A stretch of DNA of 64,000 nucleotides from Eubacteriales bacterium mix99 (GTDB lineage: Bacteria; Bacillota; Clostridia; Caldicoprobacterales; DTU083). Of this stretch, positions 9,298 to 43,184 are shown in pieces. The DNA lies in contig CP121690.1 of NCBI GenBank assembly GCA_038396605.1, forward strand, positions 1,458,500-1,522,499. The letters are read 5' to 3'. Position numbers and translations under genes: made by a program. The notes below the pieces were generated by a model. The model saw only the letters and a program-made list of their open reading frames with translations. It had not been told where the DNA came from and ran no database searches. How positions within the stretch are numbered: position 1 is the first letter of the stretch; the number at the start of each line of letters is the position of its first letter.

Positions 9298-10729
9298 GAA
9301 CGTGTCCCTAGCTCCGTAGAATTTGCTATTTCATAGTATTGCTCCAAATATCTTCTGAAAGCTACGACTTATGCAGTTTTGATTTCTGAAGTACCGGTTG
9401 ATTGAGTAGCAAGTGTTGCTATGAGCATTGGCAATTGCTTGTACCCTTTGATTCTACGGAATCCACGTTCTGCTTCAATGAAGCCGGCCGCTGCGTGTCG
9501 GAGAGCCATTCCGCCATCTCTGAAGTTAGACACCCTGCGGATGATACCACGGCAGGCGGAGTTGGCTGATTCCATAGGGTTCGTGCTGCACAATGTTTCA
9601 CGAAGCATGCCGGGGATCTTGATCCGGTGCACTGTCAATGTCTCCTCAAGCCCTTCCAGAAGGCTTGCTGCTGCTTTTGGATATCGATACTCCAGGTTAT
9701 TGGCAATGCTCATAAGCTTGCCTTTAGCGGCCTCATACTCGAACTCCCTGTAAGCCATGGTCATAGCGACAGATACATTCGCCTGCTCCGATTCCGGGAG
9801 GTATGACAGTACGTTACGTTTCTTGTGCACCTGGCAGCGCTGAACGAGAGCTTCTGTGCCGAATATATCCGTAACAGCTTTGTGGAGGGCTTTTCCACCG
9901 TCCAGCACATAAAGCCTTGGGCGAGCAGCATCCAGTCCTCTATGAATCAAGTCTTCCAGCAAGCCTTTTACAACGGTACTGTTTTCAGAGCCACCTTCAG
10001 CAATCCCTAAGATGCGCTTTCTGCCATCGCTGTCTATACCCATGGCGGCCAGTACGGTCAGCTTCCCGAGTTCCAGGCCATCGATCATCATAACCGGATA
10101 ATCCTGGTCCAGCGTTCGTGTGAAGAATTCCTGCATAAGGCTGTCCATGCCTTCGATGAACCGCCGGCTGACCTCACTCTTGCTTGTGCATACCGCATCT
10201 GCGGTGTCTCCTTCCACTGTGCGGGAATATTTCCGTGTGCTTACTCCTGAAAGCAGCTTTGCCATGATTGCCTTGTTTAACGGATCTTCGGATTGAAACA
10301 AGCTGAGTGTTTCCAGTGGTAGTTCACCACTGCCATCAATGGCCCTAACCCTGGGGCGGTCTACCCTAACCTTCTTGCCGCCCATGACCACTGTAGTCTT
10401 GTCGGTACCGTGGCGGTATCCGGTGCGCTCCTCCGTATTGTGCTTTCCTTTGGGGCCGGCGTACTGTGCTACATCTTCTTCCAACATCATCCGCATGACA
10501 TCAAGACCCAGCGCCATCGAGAGTTCCATCAACCCATAGCGCGCTTTTTCATGTAGTACGGTGCTGTTTATTATTTCGATACTCTCATTGACGGATCCCT
10601 TGTTCTCCTGATATACTTTCATTGTGACAGCTCCTTTGTTATTTGATAGTCTATTGCTTTGACAACTTTATTCTATCAGAACTACTTGGAGCTGTCATTC
10701 TCAATTTCTACGGAGTTTGGGGCAGAATC
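9298..10729 (-). mobile_element. Complete IS256-family insertion sequence with 8-bp target duplication
   Basis: The ends read inward as GAACGTGTCCCTAGCTCCG (left) and GATTCTGCCCCAAACTCCG (right), an imperfect inverted repeat matching 15 of the first 22 bases. The element is flanked on both sides by AACGGTAA (9290-9297 and 10730-10737), an exact 8-bp duplication as expected for this family. It holds one transposase gene on the minus strand. Because the duplication surrounds this single copy, it entered on its own, not as one arm of a composite transposon. Confidence 0.92.
9369..10622 (-). CDS. IS256-family (mutator-type) transposase
   Basis: A 417-residue DDE transposase, uninterrupted and of full family length. 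The acidic triad is visible as MMIDGLELG (first Asp), LYVLDGGKAL (second Asp, followed by the QRCQVHKKRN block typical of the mutator superfamily) and NPMESANS (Glu). The start has an AAAGGAGCTGTCACAATG context on the minus strand. The reading frame is intact, so this copy may still be active and may act on the shorter related copies at 3258 and 10856. Confidence 0.95.
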   Translation of the reverse strand: MKVYQENKGSVNESIEIINSTVLHEKARYGLMELSMALGLDVMRMMLEEDVAQYAGPKGKHNTEERTGYRHGTDKTTVVMGGKKVRVDRPRVRAIDGSGELPLETLSLFQSEDPLNKAIMAKLLSGVSTRKYSRTVEGDTADAVCTSKSEVSRRFIEGMDSLMQEFFTRTLDQDYPVMMIDGLELGKLTVLAAMGIDSDGRKRILGIAEGGSENSTVVKGLLEDLIHRGLDAARPRLYVLDGGKALHKAVTDIFGTEALVQRCQVHKKRNVLSYLPESEQANVSVAMTMAYREFEYEAAKGKLMSIANNLEYRYPKAAASLLEGLEETLTVHRIKIPGMLRETLCSTNPMESANSACRGIIRRVSNFRDGGMALRHAAAGFIEAERGFRRIKGYKQLPMLIATLATQSTGTSEIKTA

Positions 10730-39388: not shown

Positions 39389-40684
39389 ATGGGACAAAGC
39401 AAGCAATGGAGCCGGTTGGACAATGCCGCGAAGATTTTCCCCCCTACCAGTTCGAAGCGGGGTACAAAGGTTTTCCGCTTTGTCTGTGAGCTGACGGGAC
39501 CGGTTGACGGGGCTGTGCTCCAACACGCGTTGGATAAAACAGTCGAAGTCTTTCCCTTATATCGCTCCATATTAAAGAAGGGATTATTCTGGTACTATTT
39601 TGAAGAGAGCAGTCTGCAGCCCGAGGTGCTTGAGGAAAGCCTGCCGGTTTGCGCTCCAATTTACGATCCCGACAGACCGGGATTATTGTTCCGTGTGTCC
39701 TATTATGGGAAAAGAATCAATCTTGAAGTTTTCCACGCCCTTGCGGACGGAACCGGCGCCTTGCATTTTATGCGCACTATGGTTTTTGTCTACTTGGCGG
39801 AGATGTATGGGATATTGGGCCGGCTGCCGGATGATGACATTGCGCCGGATCAAAAAGGTCTGGATGCCTTTCATAAATACTATGACAAAAGGGAGAACAC
39901 TCTCAAAGCGAAGCGATACCGGCCTTTCCGTATCCGCGGGGAAAGATTGCCCGATAACCGCATAGGCATTATCGAAGGTTTTCTGTCTGTCCGTGCGGTG
40001 TTGAAAAAAGCGCATGAACATCATGCCACTCTCAGCGAGTTTTTAGTCTCGGTGCTGATATGTTCCATTTATGACGGTATGACGGTTCGGGAGCGGGCCC
40101 GTCCGGTGGTTATTACCGTTCCGGTGGATTTGCGGCGCTTTTTTCCTGCCCAGACCGTCCGCAATTTTTTCGGTTTGATTCAGGTCACCCATAATTTTTG
40201 CCAGGATGGACAGGAGTTTGAGCAGGTTCTCGCCCATGTAAGGAAGTCGTTTGAACAACAGCTGACGAAAGAATACCTGTCTGGTATTATCAGCCGCTAC
40301 TCGGCTATGGAGAATAACCCCTGGATCAAAGCCATCCCCCTGGTGATCAAGATTCCGATTCTTCGTCTGGCAGGATTTTGCCAGGACAGGGGAGATACCG
40401 CGGCTTTTTCCAACGTTGGGCGAATCGCCATGCCGGCTGAAGCGGCAGGTACGATCCGACTGTTTGACGTGTTTCTGAGTGCCAAACGTCCCCAGCTCTG
40501 TCTGTGTTCCTTTGGGGATACCCTGTCAGTCAGTGTGTCATCTCCACTGGTTGATACAGGGTTTCAGCGGCGCTTTTTCCGCAGCTTGACCGATCTGGGG
40601 TTTTCCGTGCAGATGGTATCCAATCTGGAACAAATCCGCAGAGGGGAGGAGTTCCATGCTCCGATGCGACCGTTGTGGAATTGA
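39389..40684 (+). CDS. Condensation/acyltransferase-fold protein (alcohol acetyltransferase-like)
   Basis: A 431-residue protein of the chloramphenicol acetyltransferase/condensation superfamily. The catalytic HxxxDG motif is HALADGTG at about 120-127, preceded by the family's opening WSRLDNAAKIFPP and HALDKTVEVFPLYRS. A later VDLRRFFPAQTVRNFFG segment matches the DFGWG-region equivalent. Substrates in this family range from alcohols to lipids and peptides; none can be assigned. The next gene overlaps its end by 29 bases, so the two proteins are probably made together and may act as one membrane-associated unit. Confidence 0.8.
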   Translation: MGQSKQWSRLDNAAKIFPPTSSKRGTKVFRFVCELTGPVDGAVLQHALDKTVEVFPLYRSILKKGLFWYYFEESSLQPEVLEESLPVCAPIYDPDRPGLLFRVSYYGKRINLEVFHALADGTGALHFMRTMVFVYLAEMYGILGRLPDDDIAPDQKGLDAFHKYYDKRENTLKAKRYRPFRIRGERLPDNRIGIIEGFLSVRAVLKKAHEHHATLSEFLVSVLICSIYDGMTVRERARPVVITVPVDLRRFFPAQTVRNFFGLIQVTHNFCQDGQEFEQVLAHVRKSFEQQLTKEYLSGIISRYSAMENNPWIKAIPLVIKIPILRLAGFCQDRGDTAAFSNVGRIAMPAEAAGTIRLFDVFLSAKRPQLCLCSFGDTLSVSVSSPLVDTGFQRRFFRSLTDLGFSVQMVSNLEQIRRGEEFHAPMRPLWN

Positions 40685-41321
40685 TTTGCCGGGGAATCCG
40701 CTTCGCTGTCCCCTTTGCCAAAGTGCTCTTTCCGGGACGCCCGACAACACCGGAAATCGCTTTCCTGTGCCGAATACCCTTCCAAAAGCCAGCCGGAAGT
40801 TACTTGCCCTGATTGCTTTTGGGACTGTCTGTGCTTCCGTCATCAGCGTCGTCATCAATCTGATCCGGCCGGCGGGCGGCTGGTGGTCCCTGTTTGTTAT
40901 CACTGGTTTTGCCAGTCTGTGGATCGACTTTGCTGTCCTGATCCGGAAACGGAATAATCTTACGAAAGACGTCCTGTGGCAGGCGGTGGTCGTATCCCTC
41001 CTCGCTTACCTGTGGGATCGCTTTACAGGCTTCCATGGCTGGTCGCTGGATTATGTGCTTCCGATCCTTTGTACCTGCGCCATGATTGCCATAACGTTGA
41101 TTGCTCAAATACAGAAACTACACATTCAGGATTATATCCTGTATCTCTTTATGGACTGTATGCTGGGAATTATCTCGTTTGTGCTGATTCGGGCGAGGAT
41201 CGTCCGCGTGATAACCCCCTGTGCGATTTGCTTCGGGGCCTCTGTTATTTTCCTTGCAGCCTTGTTGTTCTTTGAAAGGAAAGCATTATGGGAAGAAATC
41301 CAGAGAAGGCTGCATTGGTAA
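40656..41321 (+). CDS. Zinc-ribbon membrane protein (DUF6320-like)
   Basis: A 221-residue protein with an N-terminal CxxC...CxxC zinc ribbon (CDRCGIDLPGNPLRCPLCQ, 4-22), a short linker and about six hydrophobic helices spanning residues ~48-212. It matches what I recall as DUF6320, a family commonly found after condensation-fold acyltransferases in clostridia. The start overlaps the end of the preceding gene. The function is unknown; a membrane scaffold or substrate carrier for the acyltransferase is an inference from gene pairing. Confidence 0.72.
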   Translation: MLRCDRCGIDLPGNPLRCPLCQSALSGTPDNTGNRFPVPNTLPKASRKLLALIAFGTVCASVISVVINLIRPAGGWWSLFVITGFASLWIDFAVLIRKRNNLTKDVLWQAVVVSLLAYLWDRFTGFHGWSLDYVLPILCTCAMIAITLIAQIQKLHIQDYILYLFMDCMLGIISFVLIRARIVRVITPCAICFGASVIFLAALLFFERKALWEEIQRRLHW

Positions 41322-41407: not shown

Positions 41408-41437
41408 TTGACTTTGTCCCGGCCGCTGCGGTATAAT
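41408..41437 (+). promoter_or_regulatory. Sigma-A promoter of the ECF-S operon
   Basis: TTGACT (41408-41413), an 18-base spacer, and a perfect TATAAT (41432-41437). Transcription should start near 41444, about 215 bases before the GTG start, leaving a long leader with an intrinsic terminator. Confidence 0.75.
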
Positions 41438-41443
41438 GAATCC

Positions 41444-41650
41444 AATGATTGACAGAAGTCAATGCCGCCGGCGCGTTGGTGTTCCATGATGCGTTGGAAA
41501 GAACGAAAGTATTTTGAAATAAGATCAGGAAGTATTTTAAAAGAATTTTTCAGTGGAAACGAAAAGTACATACCATGAATCATAATACCACGAAGGTATT
41601 TGTTTTTGAGAACCAAAAACAACTGCTTCGTGGTTTATTTTTTTAAAGGA
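41444..41650 (+). other. Attenuated leader RNA before the ECF-S gene (riboswitch candidate)
   Basis: The leader runs from the expected transcription start to a strong two-part terminator hairpin: ACCACGAAG (41587-41595) with CTTCGTGGT (41626-41634) and inner TTGTTTTT (41600-41607) with AAAAACAA (41615-41622), then a T run to 41645. The ribosome site AAAGGAGG follows at once. About 140 bases upstream of the hairpin are available for a ligand-binding domain. I do not recognise TPP, cobalamin, THF, preQ1, FMN, lysine or T-box signatures. The T-rich terminator just before the gene means expression must depend on antitermination. Confidence 0.5.
41587..41645 (+). terminator. Intrinsic terminator in the leader of the ECF-S operon
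   Basis: Nested 9-bp and 8-bp stems followed by TTATTTTTTT; ends directly before the Shine-Dalgarno of the GTG start at 41659. Confidence 0.8.
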
Positions 41651-41658
41651 GGATACTC

Positions 41659-42189
41659 GTGAAAAAATCAACGACGCTTCAGCTTGTCCTGGCTGCCATG
41701 TTTACCGCACTGGGTGTATTATTGCCCATCGCTTTGCATCCCCTTGGCCCGGTTGGTCAGGTGCTTCTGCCCATGCATATTCCTGTCCTGCTCTGTGGGT
41801 TTCTCGTCGGATGGAAGTACGGTGCTCTGGTGGGATTCCTTGTTCCGTTCCTTTCCAGCTTTACAACCGGTATGCCTCCCATTTACCCGGCAGGGATCTC
41901 CATGGCACTGGAGTTGGCAGCCTATGGCTTTTTAGCCGGTTTCCTGTCCCGGAAGCATTCCATCATGGTATCTCTGGTGGGAGCCATGCTGGCGGGACGG
42001 GTGGTAATGGGGGTTGCCAATCTGGTCCTGCTGGGGATGTCAGGAAAGCCCTATCTGTTTTCGACTTTTCTGTCCGGCGCTTTTGTTACGGCTCTGCCCG
42101 GCATACTCCTTCAGTTGATCCTGATCCCGGCCATTCTGTTTGCCCTGGAGAAAAACGGGATATGGGAGAGGCCGTCTTTTCATGGCTGA
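41659..42189 (+). CDS. ECF transporter S component
   Basis: A 176-residue, six-helix substrate-capture subunit of an energy-coupling factor vitamin transporter. The N-terminus has the AxxxA-type helix (LVLAAMFTALGVLLPI) that contacts the T component, followed by LPMHIPVLLCGFLVGWKYGALVGFLVPFLSSFTTGMPP, typical of this group of S components. GTG start after AAAGGAGG. No EcfA or EcfT genes are near, so it is a group II S unit sharing a common module. The ligand is unknown. A kinase-like gene follows with an 8-base overlap, which suggests the imported compound is phosphorylated on entry. Confidence 0.85.
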   Translation: MKKSTTLQLVLAAMFTALGVLLPIALHPLGPVGQVLLPMHIPVLLCGFLVGWKYGALVGFLVPFLSSFTTGMPPIYPAGISMALELAAYGFLAGFLSRKHSIMVSLVGAMLAGRVVMGVANLVLLGMSGKPYLFSTFLSGAFVTALPGILLQLILIPAILFALEKNGIWERPSFHG

Positions 42190-42787
42190 GAGGGAGGTGC
42201 AGCCGGATGACCGGTTTCTCCAGGCAGTACTGGGCGCAATTGAGAAAAAGCTCGATCAGAAGCAGAAGGTGACCGTTGCCATAGAAGGGAACAGCGGAGC
42301 CGGCAAAAGCGATCTGGCCGGCCGGGTTGCCGGACGCTGCGACTGCAATGTCATCCATATGGATGATTTCTTCCTGCAGCCTCATCAACGTACGAGGGAA
42401 CGTCTCTGCCAGGCCGGAGGGAACATTGACCATGAACGATTTCAAAGCGAAGTCGCGGATCATCTGAATGGGGACAGGGAATTCCATTATCGGATCTACG
42501 ATTGTCATCAGGCAGCGTTGACGGATACGGTCCGTGTTGTCCCGAAAAGGCTTACTGTCGTAGAAGGCGTATATAGTATGTATCCTTTATGGCAGGACGT
42601 TTTCGATCTTCGGATTTTTCTTTCCATTGCGCCGGATATTCAGATGGAACGGATCCGGCGAAGGAACGGGGTGACCATGGGAAAGCGTTTTCAGGACGAG
42701 TGGATTCCCATGGAAAACAGGTATTTTGAAACGTATCGGATTGCGGACCAATGTGATTTGGTCAGAAGCACCGGTTTTCCGACATGA
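42182..42787 (+). CDS. P-loop kinase (uridine kinase-like)
   Basis: A 201-residue small-molecule kinase. Walker A is EGNSGAGKSDLAG near residue 36-48; HMDDFFLQPHQRTRERL gives the Asp pair of the uridine/pantothenate kinase-like group, followed by GGNIDHERF, a VVEGVYSMYP (Walker B-like) strand and RIRRRNG lid arginines. It overlaps the S component by 8 bases and is probably translated with it. True uridine kinases are not usually tied to ECF transporters, so a vitamin or vitamin-like substrate is more likely. Its 3' end overlaps the convergent DUF3842 gene by 26 bases. Confidence 0.8.
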   Translation: MAEREVQPDDRFLQAVLGAIEKKLDQKQKVTVAIEGNSGAGKSDLAGRVAGRCDCNVIHMDDFFLQPHQRTRERLCQAGGNIDHERFQSEVADHLNGDREFHYRIYDCHQAALTDTVRVVPKRLTVVEGVYSMYPLWQDVFDLRIFLSIAPDIQMERIRRRNGVTMGKRFQDEWIPMENRYFETYRIADQCDLVRSTGFPT

Positions 42788-43184
42788 TTTCCCGGACCTT
42801 TGCCACAACCAGGGATACATACTCTGAAAGGTTTAAGTTCTGTGTGCTCACCACATAGCTGTTGCATTTGCTGCTGGGGATGAGGATTTTGGCAGCCCGG
42901 CACCCGCCGACTGCGGCAGCCATCCGGGGGGTTACTTCGCCCAGCAGGGAATTGGCAGCGGTAATGCCGATGGGGCCGATGATGATATCGGCGTCTGCAC
43001 TGTTGTAAACAATGGGGTTCTCTCCTGTTGCTCCCTTGTCGGCACCAGCTTTCAGCATAGTGGAGGTGGCAATGCTGTTGGTTCCGATGGCAATCAGTTC
43101 CTGTTCCGGAAAGCTTGCTTTCAACTGTTCCACAACGGTCTTGCCCATTTTTCCTCCCTGTCCGTCCAGTACCAGGATTTTCAT
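42762..43184 (-). CDS. DUF3842 family protein
   Basis: A 140-residue protein starting at the ATG after AAGGAGAGATTC. It begins with a Rossmann-like strand-turn MKILVLDGQGGKMGKTVVEQL and continues ELIAIGTNSIATSTMLKAGADKGATGENPIVYNS, typical of DUF3842. Two glycine-rich turns suggest nucleotide binding, but no activity is known to me. GPIGITAANSLLGEVTP and SKCNSYVVSTQN are conserved-looking. It is transcribed against the kinase gene. The ATG at 43202 would add six residues but lies upstream of the ribosome site. Confidence 0.82.
   Translation of the reverse strand: MKILVLDGQGGKMGKTVVEQLKASFPEQELIAIGTNSIATSTMLKAGADKGATGENPIVYNSADADIIIGPIGITAANSLLGEVTPRMAAAVGGCRAAKILIPSSKCNSYVVSTQNLNLSEYVSLVVAKVREIMSENRCF

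Follow-up and report, generated by a model that had tools for sequence, protein, structure and literature searches.

The leader upstream of the ECF transporter S component (ECF-S) gene in the window, by which the whole stretch of 64,000 nt is meant, is on sequence comparison a conserved, unclassified, terminator-controlled RNA switch with covarying hairpins in orthologues. The reading preferred here, and considered rather probable as a whole, is that the DUF3842 protein operates the two hairpins of this leader (P1 and P2) by antitermination and that the ECF-S protein and the adjacent kinase would salvage a nickel-pincer nucleotide (NPN) compound. It is proposed more tentatively, at a little short of an even chance, that DUF3842 is a new Rossmann-fold RNA-binding antiterminator sensing NPN via tandem C-(A)NGAA-G hairpins, and that the ECF importer and kinase form the first salvage route for such an organometallic cofactor.

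Leader anatomy and hairpin conservation

The initial annotation had described a near-consensus promoter, about 140 bases and then a double-stem terminator directly before the ribosome site, and this arrangement was confirmed (Table 1). The leader is approximately 200 nt long and ends in a two-tier intrinsic terminator just 5′ of the ribosome site, with transcription inferred to start near 41444, about 143 nt from the terminator, and the ECF-S gene beginning with a GTG codon at 41659. The base stem of the terminator is formed by ACCACGAAG (41587-41595) and CTTCGTGGT (41626-41634), while its cap is an inner stem of TTGTTTTTG/CAAAAACAA and its T tract occupies 41634-41644. A simple terminator scan, designed for single stems whose loops measure 3-8 nt, did not list this two-tiered structure. 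Leader and terminator together gave a better fold than all 200 of 200 dinucleotide shuffles (z -2.9); the leader without the terminator folds more weakly (z -1.7), 12 of 200 dinucleotide shuffles being equally good. Directly upstream of the promoter, at 39389-41321, there is an overlapping gene pair coding for a DUF6320 protein and a 431-aa protein, the latter with no match in Pfam or NCBIfam.

No known class had been recognised for the leader and an Rfam scan had been advised. Rfam (release 15) gave no family at its gathering threshold over the whole window, and a permissive scan gave just three weak matches, all to animal-type RNA families, so that a known riboswitch class was rejected at both curated and permissive thresholds. 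A T-box, suggested by the terminator sequence ACCACG...CGTGGT, was also dismissed, with no Rfam match.

Table 1. Features of the window locus, and elements found at lar and nickel/cobalt loci of related genomes
Feature	Position or locus	Strand	Remarks
Sigma-70 type promoter, TTGACT-18-TATAAT	41408..41437	+	11/12 consensus bases
Hairpin P1, AUUGAC-AGAA-GUCAAU	41448..41463	+	Few nt 3′ of inferred transcription start
P1-P2 linker	41464..41583	+	Poorly conserved
Hairpin P2, AAUACC-ACGAA-GGUAUU, putative antiterminator	41584..41600	+	
Intrinsic terminator	41587..41644	+	5′ arm ACCACGAAG belongs to P2
Ribosome binding site, AAAGGAGG	41645..41652	+	
ECF transporter S component (PF12822), proposed importer	41659..42189	+	E 1.7e-18; 67.6 bits, cut-off 30.7
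P-loop kinase, uridine kinase/phosphoribulokinase type	42182..42787	+	Proposed to rephosphorylate imported nucleoside
DUF3842 protein (PF12953), Rossmann-like	42762..43184	-	Convergent; proposed trans-acting partner of leader
Element heading LarE-LarB-LarC	L188		
Element heading larC	L189		
Element of FecCD-type transporter divergent from larC	L189	-	Its own element; R1 E 0.3, accepted on inspection
Element heading CbiM-CbiQ-CbiO-LarE-LarB-LarC	L190		
Element heading two small membrane proteins and LarE-LarB-LarC	L226		
Element of CbiM gene upstream of larC	L197		R1 E 1.9, accepted on inspection
Element at FmdE-ABC transporter-LarE-LarB-LarC cluster	L196		Via relaxed descriptor
Element at or beside lar operon	L239		
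Element at lar locus	L307		DUF3842 present, no ECF-S

Relatives of the ECF-S gene are present in 65 of 99 related genomes, and leaders were compared at 80 named ECF-S loci. Many of these leaders possess a pair of hairpins: P1 lies close to where transcription begins and P2 at the terminator. Both have (A)NGAA loops, mostly C-G closed, on varied stems. P1 stems include GUUGAC/GUCAAC, GCCGGC/GCCGGC, GUUAAC/GUUAAC and AAGAAUU/AAUUCUU, with a loop of NGAA or ANGAA, while P2 reads UACC-AYGAA-GGUA or a variant of it. The distance between the two loops ranges from 22 to 189 nt in 22 hand-picked leaders. In some leaders (G257, G392) P2 occurs without P1, and many ECF-S leaders are without the element, its strict P2 core being found at 11 of the 80 loci. 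At L066 (upstream of ECF-S) and at L307 (9643-9726), two P1-type hairpins in succession precede P2.

The covariation check that had been advised for orthologous leaders showed the hairpins to be conserved, with double-sided changes at 5 of 6 pairs of P1 and 2 of 5 pairs of P2 in 14 leaders. Among 31 P1 windows, a few of which may be mis-assigned, all 6 of the pairs show such changes and the double-changed cells number 68, compared with 14.7 for shuffled alignments, although the pair count by itself (6 pairs) was equalled in 85 of 500 shuffles; among 32 P2 windows they occur at 3 of 5 pairs. The automatic picks (43 of P2, of which 32 were used further, and 31 of P1) contain some mis-assigned hairpins, and the N-masked locus L002 and duplicate named loci were left out of the counts. 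Since the hairpins were selected for pairing, pairing percentages are biased, and it is the variety of the stems, not the fraction of paired cells, that is independent evidence for P1 and P2. CsrA sites follow a GGA rule, and this identity was rejected on the loops, most of which lack GGA (AGGAA in 7 of 43 P2 and 2 of 31 P1 picks).

In 32 of 38 leaders having both P2 and a terminator, bases of P2 are used by the minimum-energy terminator, from either the 5′ or the 3′ side; of the six exceptions, four had their terminator shortened by the script and two had P1 mistaken for P2. Two designs can be distinguished. In the first, which includes the window, the 5′ side of P2 lies within the 5′ arm of the terminator, and in the second (L014, L019, L066, L068, L077, L097) it is the 3′ side of P2 that lies there. 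P2 and terminator are mutually exclusive in both designs, which argues for a switch between them, and P2 looks like an antiterminator. The apical loop of the terminator is itself C-NGAA-G in several leaders (e.g., L022, L060, L077) and is possibly a third site.

Genes led by the element and the case for NPN salvage

A covariance model of the element (R1) was trained on 14 leaders with 4-nt P1 loops only, because mixed 4- and 5-nt loops shifted the P1 5′ arm by one in the MAFFT alignment, and it was run on 391 genomes of the class. Types with 5-nt loops are consequently under-detected, and with nine candidates scored per genome and the training leader L010 (G048) unrecovered, the counts of elements are lower bounds. 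At E ≤ 0.1 there were at least 46 matches (at least 8 of them training sequences), 34 before ECF-S orthologues, five before larE, larC or CbiM and seven elsewhere that look like chance; the at least 34 matched ECF-S leaders compare with 158 genomes possessing the ECF-S gene. The five other targets are larE (L142), larC (L153) and CbiM-type nickel/cobalt permeases (L146, L147, L156), of which those of L146 and L156 are CbiM by Pfam, with no lar gene within the surrounding 16 kb.

A scan of 40 larC neighbourhoods (605 kb) gave 16 R1 matches, ten of which look like chance, and three R1 lar matches were seen again inside operons (L188, L189, L190; Table 1). The scan further added the elements of L226, L197 and the minus strand of L189. 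LarE, LarB and LarC of L188 and L239 score above their NCBIfam cut-offs. Visual inspection showed that the G010 leader of larEBC also contains a P1 (loop ACGAA), and that its terminator encloses an AGAA hairpin. In 0.63 Mb searched on both strands, a relaxed descriptor gave 8 matches where 10 shuffles averaged 2.3, and six of the 8, in five leaders, lie at lar operons; a strict descriptor gave two. The genes headed by the element serve either NPN or the uptake of nickel/cobalt. The window locus shares its element with the Lar and nickel-uptake operons (LarE/LarB/LarC, CbiM) of related genomes, but here the element precedes ECF-S and kinase genes and the genome lacks both LarB and LarC. It is worth mentioning that FecCD/BtuC-type ABC transporters occur within or divergent from hairpin-led lar operons (L188, L189, L196), a possible second uptake route for nickel or cofactor, and that L188 and L196 also code for FmdE proteins bearing a zinc finger of the DksA/TraR type.

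Both the ECF-S and the adjacent kinase assignments of the initial annotation hold (Table 1). FolT (TIGR04518) was rejected as the identity of the S component at 20.2 bits against a cut-off of 60, as was RibU, matched only weakly by a PDB profile (E 2e-4). The accompanying guess that the ligand is a compound both imported and phosphorylated fits a nickel-pincer nucleoside or nucleotide or a precursor. NPN is required by LarA-family enzymes. Its makers are LarB, LarE and LarC, according to the excerpted text of PMC11796402.

LarC, LarA and ECF-S were tabulated in 391 genomes of the class, leaving out 7 with weak LarC and 29 with weak ECF-S matches; the first ECF-S cut-off was about 1e-24, with G214 and G336 also admitted, and the table was made with uniform cut-offs as well. 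Of the 79 genomes with LarA and without LarC, 64 carry ECF-S, compared with 94 of the remaining 312 (odds 9.9, p 1.7e-16), the genomes being phylogenetically non-independent. With uniform cut-offs the former count becomes 61-70 of 76-79 (p 1e-15 or less), for example 63/79 at 1e-24 and 70/79 at 1e-5. ECF-S is also rarer with LarC (43/162) than without it (115/229), and it directly adjoins LarA in L235, L236 and L237 and LarC in L081. Within the family of the window's organism ECF-S is found in 12 of 13 genomes, and the exception, G010, is also the sole genome in which LarB and LarE exceed their cut-offs, with LarC adjoining both. The genome of the window gave no match for LarB or LarC and only a sub-threshold PP-loop match for LarE; it does code for one divergent LarA-like protein with the motifs GTHMPMT, VPHE and TKNILVG, which hold the counterparts of the LarA catalytic histidines and lysine. 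ECF-S is enriched where NPN synthesis is missing, a distribution suggesting that salvage replaces synthesis.

A different cargo would fit the same regulator, with the link between DUF3842 and the hairpins being real and common to lar operons and the imported compound being another pyridine- or nickel-related one, such as a nicotinate derivative. This is regarded as quite improbable. It gains from the 51 of 158 ECF-S genomes with neither LarA nor LarC detected, in which there are either undetected NPN enzymes or another substrate, so that the substrate claim is not a universal explanation; and also from LarB being present in 35 of 43 genomes having ECF-S and LarC, from which it follows that salvage is not needed everywhere. 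Against it are the complementary occurrence of ECF-S with LarB, LarC and LarE, the operons with LarA, and the absence of LarB from the remaining 8 of those 43 genomes as opposed to 1 of 37 with LarC and no ECF-S (p 0.03). The 8 genomes also indicate that a Ni-free precursor may be the cargo in some hosts.

LarA occurs in many Clostridia, and a LarA-like protein in the window's organism, that are without the pathway and yet have kept ECF-S and kinase, headed by a shared RNA switch. The excerpt of PMC11796402 describes genomes with the NPN pathway and no LarA, of which LarA without the pathway is the converse. The excerpts of PMC11770544, PMC7583248 and PMC11796402 contain no account of NPN uptake, an uptake route for NPN by ECF-S and kinase was not found in the papers searched, and the search gave no paper pairing “nickel-pincer nucleotide” with “riboswitch”. 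If the reading is true, an orphan ECF-S family gains a substrate, DUF3842 gains a role, there is a new antitermination code, and cofactor cross-feeding is predicted, with NPN as a shared “vitamin” among anaerobes.

DUF3842 and its association with the hairpins

DUF3842, whose sole Pfam match is PF12953, was surveyed in 80 genomes by category and was found in 0/20 with neither lar genes nor ECF-S, 9/20 with LarC only, 13/20 with ECF-S and LarA and 6/20 with ECF-S only. Expectations for 47 genomes with hairpin leaders and 14 further ECF-S genomes were fixed before a second search, in which the protein was present in 47/47 and absent from 14/14 as expected. It was already known in the locus in 22 of the 47, while the other 25 of 25 were new, 19 of these genes lying on a different contig or at a long distance. 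A C-(A)NGAA-G hairpin of 5 bp or more, taken as the single standard throughout, is present in 30 of 36 ECF-S leaders in genomes with DUF3842, against 0 of 32 in genomes without it and a mean of 0.2/36 after base shuffling. From the set without DUF3842, the genomes G216, G314 and G357 of the first survey were left out, their gene coordinates not being listed, and DUF3842 was the one protein whose presence was compared with that of the element.

In each of four families (f1, f3, f24, f25), genomes possessing protein and element together stand alongside an ECF-S genome that lacks the two, the joint losses being in G007 (f1), G023 (f3), G049 (f24) and G083 (f25); G082 (f24) passes a looser hairpin criterion only. 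The culturable relative Lutispora thermophila (L032) possesses the DUF3842 gene as well as the element. G119 has DUF3842 and ECF-S with neither hairpin recognisable. That the leader is just an ordinary terminator with chance hairpins, giving constitutive attenuation and no specific control, is hardly credible. Terminators before genes are common and GAA-type loops are frequent in stable hairpins, but this explanation is already contradicted by the leader counts and by the excess of relaxed-descriptor matches, most of them at lar operons.

The possible riboswitch of the initial annotation stands in part. A conserved, unclassified, terminator-controlled leader is present, whereas the term riboswitch is unsupported: among the genomes tested the hairpins were never seen without DUF3842, and P2 overlaps a terminator arm, which points to a protein-dependent antitermination site. 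A protein-binding site is the very outcome that had been named as contrary to the riboswitch proposal.

A true small-molecule riboswitch, with P1 and P2 binding NPN, a precursor or nickel and DUF3842 being a co-inherited protein of the NPN pathway, is considered rather unlikely. Its near-identical P1 and P2 loops could pack together, as happens in two-hairpin aptamers such as guanidine-II, and its regulon fits a single cofactor. DUF3842 moreover occurs in both lar and ECF-S loci: in L064 (1972-3213, minus strand) one 414-aa frame runs from DUF3842 into the N-terminal region of LarC (nickel insertion), by its sequence a natural fusion, and in L226 and L303 DUF3842 lies 1-2 kb from larE or larB. 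Among lar loci without ECF-S, the element is found in 1 of 7 with DUF3842 (L307) and 0 of 9 without it, the other six having no element in some 12-16 kb around larC, so that a simple one-to-one rule is weakened and DUF3842 need not be a regulator. What argues against an aptamer is that 32 of 32 ECF-S leaders in genomes without DUF3842 lack the hairpins though ECF-S is kept, that the losses coincide within single families, and that loop distances of 22-189 nt and P2-only leaders are hard to reconcile with a composite aptamer.

On balance DUF3842 probably operates the P2 antiterminator, to go by these co-occurrences, alongside which its fusion to LarC in L064 also counts. Structure prediction (pLDDT 93.7) gives it a Rossmann-like fold, closest to those of UbiX-type and NAD(P)-binding proteins and with matches including a molybdenum-cofactor carrier (Z 8.7); no RNA-binding domain is recognisable, a sequence search of the PDB gave nothing useful and the literature search gave no paper mentioning DUF3842. 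It is reasonable to suppose that the modelled fold suits a pyridine nucleotide such as NPN, a shared fold showing no function, and a role of the predicted structure as an NPN carrier is equally thinkable. Autoregulation was rejected, as 0 of 20 DUF3842 genes have a hairpin of the element type of at least 5 bp upstream; no lar gene lies in up to 8 kb around these 20 genes (there is a kinase in L302; ECF-S was not queried).

Proposed mechanism and related systems

In the antitermination mechanism proposed, DUF3842 would bind the loops of P1 and P2 and stabilise P2 as the antiterminator, and with P2 held the polymerase would pass the terminator into the ECF-S and kinase genes. With NPN plentiful, DUF3842 would be released or never recruited and the terminator would form, a direction guessed from logic; product-sensing ON control is uncommon for importers, a difficulty that falls away if DUF3842 acts in its apo form. 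The ECF-S protein would bring in NPN, its nucleoside or a late precursor, the kinase would put the phosphate back on, and a host without LarB, LarC and LarE could thereby load its LarA-family enzyme.

The closest known design is that of the ANTAR dual-hairpin antiterminators (EutV/AmiR/NasR), in which, in the excerpted text of PMC3369931, two small hairpins are present, the second overlaps the 5′ base of the terminator and protein binding favours the antiterminator. Two hairpins with the second overlapping the terminator are shared, but the hexanucleotide ANTAR loops with A1 and G4 differ from the (A)NGAA loops of 4 or 5 nt found here, and the linkers of 5-12 nt in Enterococcus faecalis eut (same excerpt) differ from the loop-to-loop distances in the 22 leaders. 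A further difference is that the proposed partner here is Rossmann-like.

Tandem near-identical hairpins with short loops and a variable linker are likewise a feature of the guanidine-II (mini-ykkC) riboswitch, whose loop is ACGR. The loop here is (A)NGAA, in which the G follows a variable base, the gene context differs, and the guanidine-II covariance model had no match in the window at curated or permissive Rfam thresholds. RAT sites of the LicT/SacY type consist of a hairpin that is mutually exclusive with the terminator, as P2 is, but the hairpin itself differs and the partner DUF3842 matches just PF12953.

Between DUF3842 and larE in L226 there are two genes for small membrane proteins on the minus strand, at 10109-10534 and 9798-10112, whose products begin MACFLIPAAEAIV... 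(no Pfam match) and MTLLTTVFA.... A similar pair of small membrane proteins lies near larB in L315, and these proteins are possible parts of a nickel or NPN transporter.
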